A stretch of 64,000 nt of DNA from NCBI RefSeq assembly GCF_963675165.1, contig NC_087383.1:4804979-4868978 (forward strand). Reading direction: 5' to 3'. How positions within the stretch are numbered: position 1 is the stretch's first letter; every line of letters begins with the position of its first letter. Source of the stretch: Halichondria panicea (lineage: Eukaryota > Porifera > Demospongiae > Suberitida > Halichondriidae). The position numbers and the translations under genes are program-made. Shown one piece after another: positions 9,401-43,100 of this stretch. The notes under the pieces were generated by a model, which saw only the letters and a list, made by a program, of their open reading frames with translations, was not told where the DNA came from and ran no database searches.

Positions 9401-11826
9401 ACTCTTGGTTTAGCTGTAACGGATGCTAACATGTCGCAGGTTGTACTTAAGATGGTAGCGTTCCGTCTCAAGTACTTCACTCACAAGTTTGAGGTGTTTG
9501 ACGGAATCATTGTCGTCATCTCTTGGACTCTGGACGTTGCTTCAGTGTAAGAGTGCATAATTATTATTTACACGTCTATATTTAAGTATGCCACGATCAT
9601 TATCATAATTAATGCTGCCATACTGTATCCACGGTATAGTATATAGCTCCATTTCCTTGCAACCTAGCTATATAACGTGAATGTTAAGGGTGGTGGTGTT
9701 AGAACATGTAGGTTTTTGTACTACTGCTAATAGATTTACCACAGTTTTAAAATGTGTGTTCACTCTCTTTAGAGTTGAAGAGGAGGCCTTTGAGGTTGCT
9801 GCTCTGTTGATCATCCTCAGACTGTGGCGTATCCTGCGTATTGTCAATGGTGAGTGATCACTCTTGAAGTGGTAGCTACTACTTGGGTTTCACTGATTTG
9901 AACATCCTGTCTGTATGAATAGACATGTTTCCTTGGCTGGGTTTGAAGGTATTCACATCATCCTGGGTCCATTGCAACTACCTGCAAAAAACTACATATA
10001 TACAGTATAGCAGGTATATTTCGAGGTTATTATAAATGTTCACGTTTTCCGCTGATTAATAAGCATGTACCACCAATATTATTTTATACCTTCAGCACCC
10101 TCCTGAGTGAGTCAGTCGTCCTACTGTATTGTGGCTAGGCAAGAGACTCTGCTCTGTAGTCTAGTTGAGCTTGTCATTTAATATATATATATCCAATATC
10201 AGATGCATGTACTGAAAAAAGGCTGCTATTTATTCCGGGAAAATTTTTCTAACTGTCTTTTTGCAAATGTTTATACCCTCGAAATGTACCCACTCAGGAG
10301 TGCATGAATATTCATGCACTCCTGACCCACTATATTGTGCTAAATTTTTAGTCAACTAATTCCCATTCAGACCCCGGCCTAGGTGTTATCATCTGCTCCA
10401 TAAGAGTGCAGCTACATGTAGCTACATTATAGATTGTACCCACTGTCTGGGATAGGTTAACAGAGTGATGCCTCCTATTGCTGTGCCTAGCTTTGTATAT
10501 ACAATGTACTCAGTGGTCTCAACTGAACTGAACATTAGAGTTAAGAAATGTGTTTGATGCAGGCTCCATCTTGGCTGCCAAGGCTAAGTCTGATGAGCAC
10601 CTGAGGGAAGCCAAGAAAGAAGCAAAGCGGATCATACACGCTTTTCATAAAGCCAGAGACAGCAAGGTCTCGTTGGAGGTGAGTGCCTGTCGTCAGTCTG
10701 AGGACGTCTCTGTCTTCTTTAAGCAGTATTATCATGTCAATAGCCGAGGGTTAGCACTCCAGTGCTCTAGTTAAATAATTGTTACCCATGTTTTGTACGT
10801 GTATAGTAATCATGTAATCATGTGTTCTCACAGAAAGAAAACCTTCGCCTTCGGAAGCAGCTAGGAAACTCGGGCTCACAGGACTCTAATTACAACACTG
10901 AAGAGCAACCAGACCTCAATCAGGTGCCTTGTCAAAGCTACATAACATAAAGCTACCGTATAGAGGGACATTTTCGTGTGATGCAAATTTTCGGGTAAAC
11001 TCCCACGCATTGGTAATTTCACATGCAAAGCTATTGGTGGGTGTGGTTTCCTGGCATTGATATTAGAACCCATGAATATTTCTGCTGAGGGCTCTAAAGC
11101 CATATAGCGAACATTTCCCGCTATACGGTACTAGCTATAATTATTGCTAATACACACAGATGTCACAAAGAAACCATACCTTATAATCAGGTACTTGTAC
11201 TACATGTACAAACAAGTACTTTAGTACCGGCAAGAGTGCATAAGAAGAGAAGAGTGTCAAACTACTGATACTTTACACAAACACTGTGCACAAAGTAACA
11301 TGACTCGCACATGATAAAGTATTGTGAACTTACTAGTAATTAATACCTAGTAAATGTTAACTGTGACGTTTCTAGGGGTGGGGTAATCTAATTACAATTC
11401 TAGCTAGTTGTTCGTGTTCAACGTTCATGGAGCTTATGGAGCTGCTCACTGCACACTGATAGGAGACGATCTCTTCACAAAAATCATCTAAATAGAGACA
11501 ATAGTCGAGTTGATCATCTTCACTTGCACTCTTTACTCACTATTAACAACTTTGCGTTGTGTAATTATGCACAAACGTCATCAATTGCGAGTTGCTCACG
11601 TGCAATTGACAGGATGTCACGTTACTTTGTGCACAGTGTTTGTGTAGAAGTATCAGCAGTTCGACACTCTTCTCTTCTTATGCACTCTTGGTACCGGTAT
11701 ATATATACACGCAGCTGTTGCAGGGTCAGGCATAGTGTTGTGCTCGCACCCTGTATAGGATATTTATGTTCACTTCTTTCTTTCATGCAGGTACAGGTAC
11801 CTGTCAGTTCTTCACGTGAAGAGTAG
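6422..11826 (+). CDS. HVCN1: Voltage-gated proton channel (Hv1), 9 exons, 294 aa
   Basis: Exons: 6422-6540, 7051-7182, 7789-7910, 9008-9093, 9440-9546, 9773-9849, 10563-10678, 10834-10923 and 11791-11826 (TAG). The phases agree at every junction, total 885 nt. The protein is a lone voltage-sensor domain that passes protons across membranes during acid extrusion or oxidative burst. S1 has the selectivity aspartate D109 (VVLDAIIVLTEF). S2 ends with E153. S3 has D174 (FDGIIVVISW). S4 reads RLWRILRIVNG, with three arginines at 205, 208 and 211 then N214. A charged C-terminal helix (about 216-283) is the expected dimerising coiled coil. Cytoplasmic residues 1-83 are acidic and Ser-rich. His140 of the known zinc site is present, but the position of the second histidine (human 193) is Glu. 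Length fits the family. Family residue numbers are from general knowledge, aligned by eye. Confidence 0.95.
7241..7380. mobile_element. Truncated relative of the element at 11231-11690
   Basis: In HVCN1 intron 2, about 100 bp match the right half of the 11231-11690 element in reverse (AAGAGTGTAAAACTACTG, GTGCACAAAGTAACGTGACA, TCAATTGCACGTGAG). Only one terminus is present. Confidence 0.5.
10295..10324. mobile_element. 30-bp perfect palindrome flanked by a 7-bp target duplication
   Basis: The sequence is CAGGAGTGCATGAAT followed immediately by its reverse complement, with no interior. ACCCACT stands directly on both sides (10288-10294 and 10325-10331). It lies in HVCN1 intron 6. The same palindrome is at 15458-15487, and a 16-bp version is at 41144-41159. 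Confidence 0.75.
10956..11128. mobile_element. MITE with CCGTATAG ends in HVCN1 intron 8
   Basis: The ends CCGTATAG and CTATACGG are flanked by TA, the pattern of Tc1/mariner-type MITEs. The inner blocks GGTGGGTGTGGTTTCCTGGC and CATGAATATTTCTGCTGAGG are shared with copies at about 26871-27097 and 29180-29398. Confidence 0.65.
11231..11690. mobile_element. 460-bp MITE, CAAGAGTGCATAAGAAGAG ends, 7-bp target duplication
   Basis: Inverted ends of about 80 bp start CAAGAGTGCATAAGAAGAGA. GTACCGG is duplicated at 11224-11230 and 11691-11697. The terminus resembles that of the 24100-24312 element (CAAGGGCGTATAAAAGAAGA), so the two probably belong to one hAT-like group. It has no coding region and lies in HVCN1 intron 8. 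Confidence 0.7.
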
Positions 11827-12468
11827 AGGGCCGGGACTGGATGACTTTTAGCTATCATTATATTTATAATGTATATATACACTGATCAGCACCAATCATC
11901 CTGCATGGCTGAGGGCCGGGGTATGTATATTAATATTTTATGTCAATGAGCAATGTATAGTCATTTGTCATGAATGTCTTGAAAACCAGAGGATCGATAA
12001 TTCTGTATAATGATATGCATGCAAAGTACGCATGCATGTGAATGATACGTACACGATCACCATGCAGCTAGCAATCGCAATTGTTAATAAGATGTATATA
12101 GCTATGTGAATACAAGTAATTTTTTGGTCAGTTGAATTCCGTGCTAAAACTGTAGTCACATCAGTCATGCATGAATACACATGTAATATCATACACTTAA
12201 TTGTCACTTGCAGGACTATTTTTTATACACATCAAAGTTGTGAATGACGTGAGATTGATTGTCATATGCCCCCCCCCGATACTTCTTGCATTCCTTTGGC
12301 TAATCATAGCACTGATTGCAAATGTTTGCGTATATATATTTTCGATGTAGTAGCGTAGAACCAACTGACAATTTTCAGTTTCGTTAGTTCCTCATACGTA
12401 TGCCACACATGTACAATGTAAATGCATATAAAATTCTACGTTGTTATACAGAAAAAAATTATGTACAA
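11827..12468. other. Intergenic region between convergent HVCN1 and CARD-Death gene 1
   Basis: Both genes end towards this stretch. I see no coding exon and no clear AATAAA for HVCN1. The right part, from about 12200, begins the sequence that is duplicated near 20020. Confidence 0.5.
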
Positions 12469-13000
12469 TCAGCTAGAGGCCTGGCCAACACTGGAAAGAT
12501 GGTTTGCAGCAATTTTTCTAGCTAAGGCACAATTGGATCCACCATATGGATGAGCGACTGCCTTTACCAACACCCTCCAGGTCGGTACTCCATGTTTAGA
12601 AATAGCATGATTGTGTTGCAACCATGTTTCTATTACTGCATATAGCCCTGCCTTCGGTTCATCCTTATGCTTGCTCTGGATAATGTCCATATCAGCTTTT
12701 ACAAGACGAAGAGCTTTACCAAGTTGAATGAACCTGACAGCCAAATCGGATACCTCTTCTACCACATCAAAACAATCTTCGTTATCTGAAATAAAGTAAG
12801 TCAGGTAAATCTTGTTGAATCACATGTTCACCGGTAACTCACCCAGCACAGTCGTGTTATCCACTGACAGAAAGTCGTCACTATCACCACCATCAGCATT
12901 GATTGTAGCACCTGTAATATTGTTGTTGTTTTTACGATTGGATCAAAATATTAAATAAGACTGAACATGCAGTAAATGGGGGGGGGGAAGAAAATGAAAG

Positions 13001-13038
<38 letters not shown>

Positions 13039-16000
13039 TATATGCTTGATCAGAGGCTGTGGCTACTAAATGTTTCATTTTGCTGGCAGAGGAGGCTACA
13101 ATTCGAGAGGGGCCTTTAGTAGCCGCTCTCAAAATAATAATAGTGGCCTATGACTCTAGCATTTCTGCACGTGATAACCATATTTACTTGCAGCTAGCTA
13201 TATGTAGCTATAGGTAGCAGCTTATTGTTAGTGCTTCACAAAGACTTTCATGGCAAAATTTGAGTTTTTGTTTAAACGCCGCTTTTGAACAATGCTGGCA
13301 AAGGAGGCTACTATTTGAGTGCGGCCTCTGATCAAGCAAGAACAATTGTCCTTCATTCAGCAATATTTACCAATGCTTGGTTGTGGACTGTAATCGGCAC
13401 CAGTTTCAGACCCAGGACGCTTGTTTTTCCTTTCTTCAACTTCCTTCTCTGAAAAAGTATATTATAATGACCGTAAAGATGTGGATTACTAATTGCATCA
13501 TGCAGTAGGCTACCGGTAGTTATAATGAAAGCACTATGGGTCTGGTGCTCCGCCTGGTGCTCTGCGTCAGTGGAAGCATTATTTAATTTGCAATGCATGC
13601 AGAGAATGGTTCAGCAAAAAGGTTATAGTTAAAAAGCTGCTTCGTGGGTATTCTAGTCACGTACTTCCTTCGGCACCTGCAATCCATGTGGTGGCAAACT
13701 TTAACAAAATTATGCTAACCTCGAGTCAAACATGGCCATTAATGGGGGCATAATGCGTGGGTGAGTTCCCTGAGATTTGATTAAAAGCCGCCTTAGACGT
13801 TATTCTACTCAAGGATAGTAATAGTTTTGTAAATGCTCAGGCGGTGGCGTAAGTATTTATGACGCCAACATTCTTGTGTGAGCGTGAGATGTTTCACGAA
13901 ATGGGACAACTCTCAACACGGCAAAACTAACTGGCCAGTCAGGAGTAGCATCTCTGTGGACCTATTTTAGGTCATAGGATGTTTACATATATGTCTCGTA
14001 TCTTATTAATTTAATTTTAAGGTGACCCTCCAAATATCCTAGGGAAATTTTTGAAGGTACATGTATGACTTCTAACAGTATAGCAACTGCTGTGTTGAAC
14101 ATTTTGTCATGGAAGGTCAAAATGTAGGCCGCTAGAAACAAAGTACTTTTAAGCGGCCTGGAAATGAGGCTAGTAGAGTATAACCTCGACCTGGTTGTGA
14201 CACAATCACTTCATTGTCAACTGCGCCTCTAGCATCGTAATTATTTATAAATGTGTTGCCTTAAATCGAAAAATAACCGCAGCTCAGAATGGCGACGTAT
14301 TGTTAATACCGTATACAGTATATACAACCTTGGACACCTTGGTTCCAGAGGTAAACCACGCCTTGATCCACCCACTTTATTGATAAACAGCAGTGCCACA
14401 TGGTTGCCTGCGCATGCGCAGAAGATAAGCAGGCCTGTCTCCATAGTAACAGCTGCAACGCGTATGCGCATTTAAGGGACACGCCCATTTTCTGAATTAT
14501 TAAAAAGAAAATTCCCAAGCCGGATAATCGAGGTTCTACTGTAGCACGACATTTTTGAGGCATTTAAATATCATGTCTAAAAGATTTCGTTGAATAATTT
14601 TTGTGGATTGAGTGCTTACTGGAAGCCACGCCTAAAATTTTGGCACGTTATAGAAGATAATTCTAATCAGAGATAAAGGAAAGAGGAAACGAAACTACCC
14701 TCGAATGAACATCCTGTCTAAAAGATTTCGTTGAATAATTTTTGTGGGTTGAGTGCTTACTGGAAGCCACGCCTTTAATTTTCGCACGTTATAGCAGATA
14801 ATTCTAATCAGAGATAAAGGAAAGAGGAAACGAAAGTACCCTCGAATGAACATCCACTCTTTCCCGCAGTATAATCGAGGCTGTCTTTAGCAGCTTATCT
14901 GTAAGGGTGCGAGGTAGCCAAGCTAATGCCTATTTCTATACACTAGCTGTGGAGAATCATAGATACAAGAGAGAGGGATTGGAAACGAGTTCACGTGCGC
15001 CAATACTCCTACAGTAAATTGAGCAGCTGATCCGCGTTATATGCACTAACCCTCAAATTGGTAGACTACTGACGAGGTAAGCCAGGCTCCTTAATGCATG
15101 AATCTATCAGTGCTTAATACTATTGTTGTAGGCACTAGATCTGTGTAAACCAGCTTGTATATAGGCACACTAAACTGGAAGAATGGCAGTAGTTACCCTT
15201 GTGGAGGTGTTTTTGGGGTGTATATCTCCCATTGTAGGTCTTGATAACTGCTTGTTTTCAACTCTATTGCTTCAGCTAGTTTTTATGATGAATAATAATG
15301 CTTATATATATTGGTGAGTAAATAGATTGGAATAGGTGGCTTTTTGTGAGAAGGCTGCAGAGCTTGTACTTTTGGAAGTTCTGAACTAGTGGTTTCAATT
15401 CTAAAAAGCTTATTTTATTGCTTCCATGCTTTTTTTGTCCATACAGATCTGTTGGCGCAGGAGTGCATGAATATTCATGCACTCCTGTTGTTGGCGTTAT
15501 GAGGCAAACTTGTGCATGCAGAGAAAGAATACCAACACTAGCTATATATATATGTATTACTACATGTATGTGCCTTATTAGCACCACAAATTCAATGCTA
15601 GTTGATAGTTATAGCATAGATAGTTATTTTTGTGCATTTTGTGTACACTACAATATAAACCACGCCCACCATACTTCCGTTTAACAAAGATTGGAACATG
15701 AAATCGAGTTCACGTGACTTGTATTTATGGAAAAATAAACCACTAGCAAATGTGCTCATTCTGTGCAGCTCACTTCTATTTAAAGATCTAAACCTATTTT
15801 AGAAGTATAACCAGGACGCTTACACATTATAGCAATCAAAGACCCTAAAATAGCGCTTTGAAGCTTATAGCTTTATTTCCATGTCTCTTTTTACTGCATG
15901 GGTGTGGTCAGTCATTAGCTAGTACTACATGTGGTTCACAGCGTGTTATAAATTGCTGAAGGAGATGATGTCGAGGAAACACATTTCGAGCGAGTTACCC

Positions 16001-17073: not shown

Positions 17074-18838
17074 CTTTTTTTTTTTATTAATAATACTTAT
17101 TGCAAGTGAGAAGACAAAAGACAAAAGACAAAACAAAAAAACAAACCAAGAAAAAACAACAAAAACATGTGACATAATTTTATAAAGTTCCTGGGTGAAA
17201 ACACATGTTTCAGACCGATAGCACCCGGCCTTCTTGAGTTGCTAGGTCAATAGTGCCAGTGTCTAAGGCCTTCCATGGTGTAGTGGTGGTGAATGACTTC
17301 CTAGAGCCTCTGATGCACATAATCTCTGATCTTATGAGGGAGAAATTTAGCCTACACCTCATCCAATTCAGAGTTGTGCTGTATGTTTTGTCCTGTTTCT
17401 CTGCCAGCATTGAAGCTAGTTTCTTGTAGACAATATCTGCAGCCGGACCCATACCTCCAGCAGCAGAGAAAACCAAAGGCGTAAACGATCCAAATGCACT
17501 CTGTCTATCGTTGCTCCAGAAGCTCTGGGCCACAACATCAAGGCGAGCCCCATCCTCGCGGTTGGTTGTCCAGGGGCGGATCCAGGATTTAAGGAAGGGG
17601 GGTTCTTACAGTACTTCTTGTCCCAAAGCGACGAAATTTTTGTGACCACGCCCCTTTTAAAGTACCACGCCCACTAATTAACCCTCATGTTCTCCCTCAT
17701 GATTTATAAACACAGGAGAGATGGTTGTGACTGGAGGAGAGATAGTAGTGGTCCCCAGTGGAAAGACAGACGGTGGTGGCTGGTGAAGAGGAGACTTGGC
17801 TATAGACTTGTAGAACTTGACCATCAATATATTAATGATTATAGCAATTATACATGTAAGTATGCAGTGTCATTCAATATGCAGTGTCATGCACTCTCCC
17901 TTACCTGAAACTTTCCTCTTCTTACACCAGGAGTCAAGGATTCATGGCTAGATATAATAATATTATCGCTTGACCACGGTGCAAATCAATGTGGCTGCAG
18001 TAGCCAGCCCCACCCTCTTGTTATGTAGAGAGAACCAGCCCCACCCTTTTATTATGCAAAGAGAACCAGCCCCACCCTTTTATTAACGACTTTGTCACGA
18101 CAGTACAGTTAGCTAGCTAGCTAATATATACTAGCTGGAAGGGTAGTTCGTACGAACCCAACGAACTACCTCTGGATCCGCCCCTGGTTGTCCTAAGTTG
18201 GAACTGCTCTTCCGTCACAGGCTGTAAGGTTGGTTCAATATCCACATCTGGACATACTTCGCTCATAAGATTTGCTATGATGTTGCGTATTTCATTATGT
18301 CTTATTGTTGGAAATCCTCCCCTAGAGCAGCTGAGTGCATGCTCTACTGTGAAGTGAAGTCCACAGACACAGTGAGAGGGTAGGTTCTGAGGCTGCCAGC
18401 CGTACCTGAGGCAAAGAGCATCTCTGAAGGCTCCCTTGTGTAGCATGAAACCATGCTCTGCGATAGGCAGCGCTGTTATCCAGCTTGAGGTACCTTTCTC
18501 TGAGCATATTCCAACCATTTTTTTCAAATTGTTTGGTAGTTCTTCATTTAGCTCACTTACTGTCCTGGCTTCCATCTGTCGGCGGAATTTTTTGGCATTG
18601 TTCCTCAGTCTGGCTTGCTCTTGCTTCATTGTAGGTTCGTATATATCGGATTGGTCAAGTATCAGGCTGGCTAGTGGTGCTGAGATTGACATGCTCATCG
18701 TGAACTGACCAGGGCTTGTTTCACACGGGTTTGCTATACCAAGTCCCCCATGGCGGGCTGGGAGTGCCATTATCTGTCTTTCCAGATCACCAAAGGCATT
18801 CTGTCCAGTCAATTTTGGCAAATCCGGCCGTAATTATT
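17074..18838 (-). pseudogene. 5'-truncated non-LTR-type retrotransposon, C-terminal part, interrupted
   Basis: On the minus strand, coding sequence runs from about 18835 to 18187 and resumes at about 17563. It reads through a GLGIANP-type reverse-transcriptase tail, a Cys/His cluster (CVCGLHFTVEHALSC...RHNEIRN), then ARLDVVAQSFW and SAFGSFTPLVF. This order matches the C-terminal half of a reverse-transcriptase family common in sponge and cnidarian genomes; the last part resembles an endonuclease-like fold. A 3' tail follows, with TTGTCTTTTGTCT repeats and an A-rich end at 17074-17086. The reverse-transcriptase core is missing, so the copy was 5'-truncated on arrival. The element at 17572-18185 interrupts it. 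Confidence 0.7.
17572..18185. mobile_element. 614-bp hAT-like MITE inserted in the retrotransposon fragment
   Basis: Perfect 14-bp inverted ends AGGGGCGGATCCAG, with an exact 8-bp duplication GGTTGTCC at 17564-17571 and 18186-18193. Removing it and one duplicate rejoins the interrupted reading frame (RTT...NRED). Inside are three tandem copies of a roughly 31-bp unit CCAGCCCCACCCTTTTATTA at about 18002-18085. Open frames in this interval are element noise. Confidence 0.85.
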
Positions 18839-20627: not shown

Positions 20628-25284
<4,657 letters not shown>

Positions 25285-40100: not shown

Positions 40101-43100
40101 GAGAATCTGGTTACTCGGATCATTGTGAGCTGGAGATCGATGTGCATCCCCAAAAACCATGCTTTGTAATGTGATTGTAGAAGTTTATAATCAAAATTGA
40201 TTGTGAACTTTGTTCATATGCAGCATACGTAGCTCAAGTTTTGTGAAAAAACAATTAGATCAATATTGTTACAGTACATGTTCTGAGTAACCAGTTTTTG
40301 TTTTAGGTGCTGCTGTCTGAAGTAGAAGAGCTGAATTCCACCATTGACCTTTCGTTGGCTGACATTGTGAACATCCTCACACAAGGAAGAGCTCTGGTGA
40401 TTGAGGCCACTAATTTCTCTGAGGTAGGTCAGTAGCCAAAATAGCGCCCCAGTGGAAAACTGGACTGTTTGTACCAGTGGATATTATTCTCTAACCTATC
40501 ATTAGTGTATGTACGTACACACAATTTACCGTTTCCAAATGTGTATATAAGACTAAAAAACCAAGCCGTTATCAAATTGTACAAGTACGTATCCTTCCCT
40601 CTGATTCATATGCCTGTAAAGATTGAGGCCATCAATTTGAAAAAGTGTCCCTTTTACATTCACCAACAATATGCACACACCTTGTACATGTATATGCGCA
40701 GTCATCGGAAGCTCTATTTCCTCCGCTTTTATCCATCCTCTCTACTCTCCAACGGTTGTTGGACGAGTACAACACCTCCCTGTCTGCTTTTCGCCCTCAA
40801 GAATCATGTGATCCAAGCTCCACCCCCTGCACGAGTGGACAGTTGCACTCCATTAACCTGGCAACAAATGCTTCATTTATTGTCAAGTAAGTACCACTTA
40901 ATTATTACTATACATGTACGTACCGTACCGTGCAGACCTCGAATAGCTAAAAGCCTAAAAATAGCCTAATAATGTGCGCTACAAATGTATCCAACATGAT
41001 AGCCCTCGTATATAGCATTAGTTTATGTCATATCCAGCACTATGTACGGCAATAAACACTGTAGGTATTCAGCCCAAACAACAGGATAATAATAACTCCC
41101 AACTTTGCAAGTATACACATGCAGACATGGTTGTACACGGTGCCAGGAGTGCACTCCTGACTGTGCTTGTAGATCTAGTACATGTCCCATGACTGTGATC
41201 ATGCTCTGATCCCTTATGCAGCTCAACTGAGAGTGTTTCCACACTGATGTATGCTCGAGAGTTTTTGGAGAACATTGACTCTAGTGGGCAGCTGTTCAAC
41301 TATACTGCCATCAACCAGACTGCTCTGAGAGCTCAGGACCTTTCTCAAGCTGCAATTAGCCAGGTACATATAAACAATTAGGATTACAGTTTTTCTTTCC
41401 TCGAGGTTTTGGTGTGATGCACACAGCACTCATTTTGTATATATTTATGATTGCAGGTAGCTATAGTAGACACCTCTTCTCTTCTCTCTCGGTCGACAGT
41501 GGCTCTATCAGCAGCTCAGAATCTCTCTATTCAATCACTCTCACTATTGCAACGAGCTCAAGGTACGCACATGTACATGTACATGTAGTTTAACATAGTC
41601 ATTATGTGTACCTAACTATGCATGCACATGGCAAGCATCGTGATTTACTTTTTTGCTGGATCATAATGTTGTCCATTGTACGGTGTATAATTATCGTATA
41701 TCTACCATGTACATCGTCACTGTATACCCTTCCCAAAATCATGGCTACGCCACTGACACTTTAATAGCAGTGAGTAGCTTTCAAACACAAAACTGACTGT
41801 CTTCCCCCGTCTACAGATGTCGATTCAACAGTGGTGATCAACTCGAATCGTGTGCCAATCATACAAGAGCAACTGGATAGCCTGCAGCTTCAGCTCCCCC
41901 CTATAGTCAATAGAACATCACTCCTCCTCTCTCAAACAGGCCTACGAGATGAAGCTCTGAGAATTCTCCACACAGCACAAGAGGCTCGCAATCGAACCAT
42001 AGAGACAGAGCAGAGGGTGTTTAGGATAGAGGAGGGGCTTGTGGGTGTGGCATCCAATCTAGCAGGGACAGCTGAAAATGTCTTGATGGGAGAAGAGGCT
42101 CTGAGCAATGCAGAGAACGATTGTGAGTACACTGCATGTGTTCAAAAAGAACCTCATGGCCATGTAATGGTTTTGTAGGATGTATAGTGATATCAAGCAC
42201 TTAGCGCCACCATCTATCAATTTCAGTTTATAGCATCTCGACGTTCCTGAATGCAACGAGAGTGGCTAGTGAAGCCTTTGTGGTGAACGTGACTCAGTTT
42301 ATCTCTGATAACGATCGGATTATCGCTGACATCGACACCCTCATTGCTGGATTGGCAGACATCCACAGTAGGATTAACAGGGTATGGAAAAATGGACATA
42401 TCATTATAATAGATAAAGGAGTGGTGCATGTACGTATACAGGTGTTGTACTAAAAGAGTATACCTTTGCCATAGTAGTGCTGCACAAATATTGTACTATG
42501 GGCGGTAAGAAAGTAAATTTTGTTCTGTTCCCCCCCCCCCCTCTCCCCGAGCAGATCAACTCCCCCATCCAACTGGAGAGTGATGATGAAGAAGAATCAT
42601 ACCTCTCCCTGCAAGTTCCCCCGGGTCGCGCTATCGATGACACCATCCAGTTTGAGACGCTGGACATGTACATCTGGACTGGACCAGGCTTCAGGTCTCC
42701 TGCTCTGCTCTTCTATGCTGGTCCCACTTACTTTGAGGGGGAGGATGACATCAGCAGCGCAGAAACAGGCACTGAGGTGAGTATTGCCCAATTAAAAGTA
42801 ACACTGTACCAAACATACTTAGTGTGCTTAGTTGTAGCTACTAATGTGCACTTGAATGGGGCAGGTGCACAGTTATGTAACACAACTTTTGAAGGAGGGT
42901 TGTCCAATAATGTTACTACTACATGTATAACGATAGATATGTGCATGATGCGATCAGTAGAAACAAGCTTAACATGTACAGGACTACTTTGTGGTGACTC
43001 TGGAGGACAGTGACGTGGTATTGCGCTGGCAGATGGGAGGGAGTGGGGGCGTGGCCTCTGCTCCTGCCTTCAGACAGGGACACAGTCAGATATTCATTTC

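Follow-up and report, generated by a model that had tools for sequence, protein, structure and literature searches.

Short palindromes in the genome of the sponge Halichondria panicea are very probably excision scars of a cut-and-paste DNA transposon

We investigated short palindromes in a 64,000-nucleotide (nt) stretch of the genome of the sponge Halichondria panicea (NC_087383.1, positions 4,804,979 to 4,868,978, forward strand), referred to below as the window. Together with their copies elsewhere in the genome, these palindromes are very probably the excision scars of a larger cut-and-paste DNA transposon, formed when the two broken ends at the donor site were rejoined. The length of end retained varies from site to site up to a cap near 16 nt, some sites hold a single end, and palindromes form at self-complementary words. 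We therefore read them as end-joined excision sites and not, as the initial annotation of the window had proposed, as a minimal mobile unit that inserted as such.

Palindromes between target-site duplications

A perfect 30 base pair (bp) palindrome at 10295–10324, equivalent to two 16 nt transposon ends that share a TA, is bounded by the target-site duplication ACCCACT on its left (10288–10294) and, as an exact 7 bp copy, on its right (10325–10331). An identical 30-mer occupies 15458–15487. Its left duplication, GTTGGCG (15451–15457), is matched exactly on the right (15490–15496) at an offset of 2 nt; the intervening TT (15488–15489) represents either two extra nucleotides or part of a duplication of 8–9 bp with one change. 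In a 16 bp form at 41144–41159, the two ends overlap at TGCA, and the flanking repeats ACGGTGC (41137–41143) and ACTGTGC (41160–41166) differ by one mismatch. A paralogous intron carries the empty site for the second 30-mer (CAGATCTGTTGGCATTATG, 24034–24052, forward strand). The initial annotation had described these palindromes, their direct repeats and the empty site, and had seen in them two inverted termini that meet head to head and lack an interior. All of this holds, with exact 7 bp repeats at the two 30-mers, and the joined termini lie mostly between target duplications.

The 30-mer did not occur in 100 shuffles of the window, and the 16-mer, with up to two mismatches allowed, was present in 2 of 100. 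When 30 bp intervals were drawn at random from the window, an exact 7 bp flanking repeat was found in 73 of 200,000 draws.

Copies of the ends across the genome

We searched the genome (131 Mb, 39 contigs) and read flanks and joints on contigs C1 and C2, on the first 6.3 Mb of C3 and at the listed palindrome places (106 half-site views). With up to two mismatches, the 30-mer has 41 copies, 12 of them exact (G form), against none for the reversed pattern; another 11 of the 41 share a doubly changed, again perfect palindrome, CAGGAGTACATGAATATTCATGTACTCCTG (A form). The 15 nt half-site CAGGAGTGCATGAAT gave 352 matches (180 forward and 172 reverse; reversed control, 0), among which a full palindrome counts twice. 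With G and A forms taken together and both views of two-ended copies counted, 56 of 138 half-site views have an exact 7 bp repeat 12–63 nt downstream; four control offsets gave 2, 2, 1 and 1 of 138. The 106 views read include two-ended copies with varying joints as well as single ends that directly abut the 7 bp repeat.

The duplications around the 41 30-mers are exact in 16 copies, within one mismatch in 22 and within two mismatches in 26. An 8 bp repeat is exact in one copy (L037) and present with one mismatch in another (L066), while the repeat is exactly 7 bp in 15 others. The assignment to hAT transposons in the initial annotation was thus rejected, because the duplications are 7 bp and not 8 bp; hAT excision is also not known to leave a 16 nt remnant of each end. 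From 40 duplications, paralogs included, we obtained the symmetrised target motif RTANTAY.

The retained ends stop near nucleotide 16

We then measured how much of each end is kept. In 45 duplication-bounded entries, with ends scored to the first mismatch, the left end measures 16 nt in 32, 14–15 nt in nine, 17 nt in two and 39 nt in two; this end had been chosen to hold ~15 nt or more, and five loci (L002, L028, L035, L037 and L100) are present in both orientations. The right end, which was not selected, measures 0–16 nt in 43 entries (exactly 16 nt in 14) and 34–39 nt in the other two, which are L028 and L030 viewed from the opposite side.

Single-ended sites stop at the same place. Matching to the long inverted repeat reaches nucleotide 16 in 44 of 60 such sites and continues to nucleotide 17 in 17 of those 44, or in 11 of 38 without the six long ends; three of these six (L118, L122 and L123) had been fetched for their long ends, and some members of the set held a changed second end. 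A stricter recount excluded stretches resembling a second end and loci fetched for long ends, leaving three long ends (L028, L030 and L067) and 47 short ones. Among the latter, 33 of 47 match at nucleotide 16, 11 of 33 at nucleotide 17 and 2 of 11 at nucleotide 18. Over 30 nt, the long ends show 0–5 mismatches, and we therefore infer that the stop at nucleotide 16 marks a cut and not the divergence of a family.

At some loci a single end lies directly between the two copies of the duplication: TACCTAT flanks CAGGAGTGCATGAA on both sides in L082, ACTGTAT flanks CAGGAGTGCATGAAT in L114, and CCTCTAG flanks CAGGAGTGCATGAATA in L113. In 13 of the 47 short single ends of the stricter set, at least 6 nt of the left flank recur on the 3′ side; permutation gave a mean of 0.7 such ends and, in 500 rounds, never more than 4.

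Joints form at self-complementary words

Two tails that are identical can pair only at self-complementary words, and the palindromes fall at such words. The 16-mer joined at TGCA has 43 exact copies in the genome (control, 0). A flanking repeat with at most one mismatch accompanies 20 of the 43, which comprise 38 distinct flank pairs, compared with 1.6% of shuffled pairs. A 20-mer joined at CATG was predicted before the search, and 14 copies were found. Ten of them have an exact 7 bp repeat (L151, L152, L154, L155, L156, L157, L158, L159, L162 and L164), three have one mismatch (L153, L161 and L163), and L160 has three. For the A form, whose tails were expected before the search to pair at GTAC, the corresponding 14-mer was counted, by its sequence alone, in 37 copies. 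An 18-mer with no self-complementary word, the single control length used, has no copy in the genome. At one locus (L144), two 16 bp scars lie 35 bp apart.

A longer parent element and a series of forms at one site

The inverted repeat of the parent transposon starts with CAGGAGTGCATGAATAGGAGTATC and is seen at greater length in L028, L030 and L067; its inner part has 30 matches in the genome with up to three mismatches. An intact, 366 bp non-autonomous element (L117) has inverted repeats of ~38 nt and the duplication ACCCCAC/ACCCCAT, with one mismatch. The initial annotation had called for a genome-wide search for further copies and longer elements, and this did bring to light the 30-mers, the 16-mers and the 366 bp element; many copies, however, lack a clean flanking repeat, and a BLAST search of the genome with the 366 bp element returned relatives and no autonomous copy. 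A BLAST search with the flank of L067 recovered the host repeat without the insert and not the element. The 267-amino-acid open frame of L118 does not resemble a transposase by eye. In a ~360 bp relative of the parent element (L123), CAGGAGTGTATGAACACTCAT appears by eye to be a nested scar; the sequence around it is similar to that beside the L010 scar.

At locus L119, perfect GTCCTAC repeats enclose 46 nt of one end and precisely 16 nt of the other, which is what partial repair synthesis and subsequent end joining should leave.

One dispersed host repeat carries several forms at the same position. We observed the 30-mer in L036, L037 and L003, a 33-mer in L024, a 30-mer variant with a lost duplication in L032, a single end in L104, a partly repeated segment in L126, a shortened form in L127 and a rearranged one in L129; the copies L128 and L130 are diverged and look empty. 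The full element was absent from the 20 matches to the host repeat that were examined. The series fits independent excisions and is only suggestive, because one scar that mutated later could give several forms and none of the copies carried the full element.

Proposed mechanism

In our model, the parent would be a cut-and-paste DNA transposon with inverted repeats of ~38 bp and 7 bp target duplications. Its transposase would cut inside each end and leave the outermost ~16 nt of the inverted repeat on the donor DNA, most probably as single-stranded 3′ tails. The 30-mer would arise where the tails anneal at the terminal TA; annealing at CATG would give the 20-mer, annealing at TGCA the 16-mer and, in the A variant, annealing at GTAC the 14-mer. 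The remaining sites would represent blunt joints, filled joints or joints resected on one side, and the repair route would presumably be alternative end joining. The ends, the duplications, the 16 nt cap, the joint types and an intact non-autonomous element sharing these ends can be read directly in the sequence; the cap would correspond to a stagger of 16 nt.

Superfamily of the parent transposon

The parent transposon probably belongs to the 1360/Galileo-like branch of the P superfamily. The 7 bp duplication, within the 7 or 8 bp expected of the P superfamily, and the RTANTAY motif suggest this membership: the target motif reported for Galileo is GTANTAC (PMC4168063; PMC2775673), and the duplication given for 1360 is 7 bp (PMC3276498). 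The genome does contain P-type transposases, none of which could be linked to these ends among the places compared. The P-domain matches listed in the genome number 46, eight of which (on C1, C2, C3, C4, C9 and C12) have identical scores; five of the eight have 570-amino-acid open frames. L115 carries an RNase H N domain, a GTP-binding domain and an RNase H C domain in three open frames, and it shares 99.9% identity with L116 over 3.25 kb. The group appears to be a P-like family that amplified recently and has other ends. Over the part read, which stops short of the left end, L115/L116 were rejected as the parent: on the right, their shared stretch ends differently (...ACAGCTA), and neither contains a CAGGAGT end.

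The window contains two further candidate elements. A 460 bp element at 11231–11690, ~900 bp from the first scar, has inverted repeats of ~75 bp that begin with CAAGAGTGCATAAG and lies between exact 7 bp copies of GTACCGG (11224–11230 and 11691–11697); it is apparently intact and non-autonomous and belongs to a sibling family whose end is similar. A 616 bp segment at 17571–18186, bounded by inverted ends of the CAGGGGCGGATCCAG type and a 6 bp repeat, GTTGTC, is possibly another DNA transposon.

Weighing the excision origin

Several observations weigh against the excision model or its link to P. At the 15458 copy, TT separates the end from the duplication, where the model predicts nothing. A clean duplication is missing at many copies: it is exact in only 16 of the 41 30-mers, the flank repeats of 14 of the 43 16-mers have at least three mismatches, and no repeat of at least 6 nt was found at 34 of the 47 strict short single ends, for which resection through the duplication is the likely reason. 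The A-form 20-mer is rare (four genome copies, counted by sequence alone). The variants at one position of the host repeat could be later mutations of a single scar. Our first prediction, taken from the fly P element, was a stagger of 17 nt, and the data give 16. Finally, the P-domain places compared (44 of 46) lie at least 26 kb from the 41 places with a long end or a relative, and at least 17 kb from the 57 half-site places on C1 and C2.

The scars could have been left by a transposase of another superfamily with an undescribed cleavage chemistry, an account that keeps the excision origin and changes only the enzyme; we consider it unlikely. In its favour, the 44 of 46 P-domain places compared are all more than 16 kb away from the ends with which they were compared. 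Against it, the 7 bp duplication and RTANTAY agree with the reported features of the P members Galileo and 1360, and the genome does hold the 46 listed P-domain matches with their eight identical scores. The form of the cut, as read from the scars, would point the same way: P transposase is reported to cut 17 nt inside the element and leave 3′ extensions (PMC7776569; PMC2895639), and so long a staggered cut is described as unusual and as atypically long for P (PMC7776569).

Excision and mobility might also be combined. Some perfect 30-mers, being two 16 nt ends back to back, may themselves have been cut and re-inserted, so that an exit wound became a mobile unit of a P-type branch characterised by a 16 nt stagger and 7 bp duplications; we think this very unlikely. 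It is likewise highly improbable that the 30 bp palindrome is in general a minimal mobile unit, recognised by a transposase, inserted whole and generating its own 7 bp duplications. Such a unit would account for the 12 identical G-form and 11 identical A-form perfect palindromes, with exact duplications of at least 7 bp in 7 of the 12 and 8 of the 11, and the paralogous intron is indeed empty. An empty paralog, however, is expected equally after insertion and after excision. A unit inserting whole does not predict a varying interior, one-ended copies with duplications, or the coexistence of 14-, 16- and 20-mers with no 18-mer, and the 16 nt cap leaves little room for internal binding by a transposase.

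Internal deletion in place, by replication slippage or recombination at self-complementary words common to both ends and without any cut by a transposase, is hardly credible: as a matter of sequence logic, TGCA, CATG and GTAC, each present as a direct repeat in the two ends, would lead to the same palindromes, but the process should also use stretches beyond nucleotide 16 of the 38 nt repeat and explains neither the sharp stop near that nucleotide on both sides nor the one-ended copies joined to a duplication, nor the fillers.

Significance

On the excision model, the genome seems to keep hundreds of natural excision joints, comprising the 352 half-site matches, in which palindromes count from both sides, and 43, 14 and 37 of the shorter palindromes, against 30 matches to the longer end. 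Excision joints of the P element are known from laboratory constructs (PMC2895639), and we recognised no genome-wide catalogue of P-type scars among the titles and abstract openings of the open-access papers listed. Such scars would allow the position of a transposase cut to be read to nearly one nucleotide, and they would provide a natural set of DNA-repair joints from one defined kind of break. They are also a warning that a short palindrome flanked by target duplications may mark an exit and not an insertion, which matters for programs that find miniature transposons.

Comparison with known systems

The closest likeness is to the Drosophila P element. In flies lacking Rad51, excision of P{wa} is reported to leave 17 nt tails (PMC2895639), and the commonest short-microhomology joint, with 14 isolates, is a 30 bp palindrome, CATGATGAAATAAC(AT)GTTATTTCATCATG, between 8 bp duplications (PMC2895639, Table 1). 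Fillers, blunt joints, one-ended joints and incomplete repair synthesis followed by end joining are also described (PMC2895639, Tables 1–3). The sponge scars resemble these reported joints in their identical inverted tails between duplications, in a 30 bp palindrome, the commonest joint of that short-microhomology class in the fly, and in their blunt, filled and one-ended joints. They differ in tail length (~16 nt instead of 17 nt), in duplication length (7 bp instead of 8 bp) and in their source, a genome assembly instead of a laboratory cross. The hAT element hobo is likewise reported with 8 bp duplications (PMC3276498), in contrast to the 7 bp of the sponge scars; the likeness to hAT put forward in the initial annotation was an end beginning with CAGG. 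Galileo and 1360, as described, share the 7 bp duplication and palindromic targets with the sponge element (GTANTAC in Galileo, GTTNAAC in 1360 and RTANTAY here). The very long inverted repeats reported for Galileo are unlike the ~38 nt seen here.

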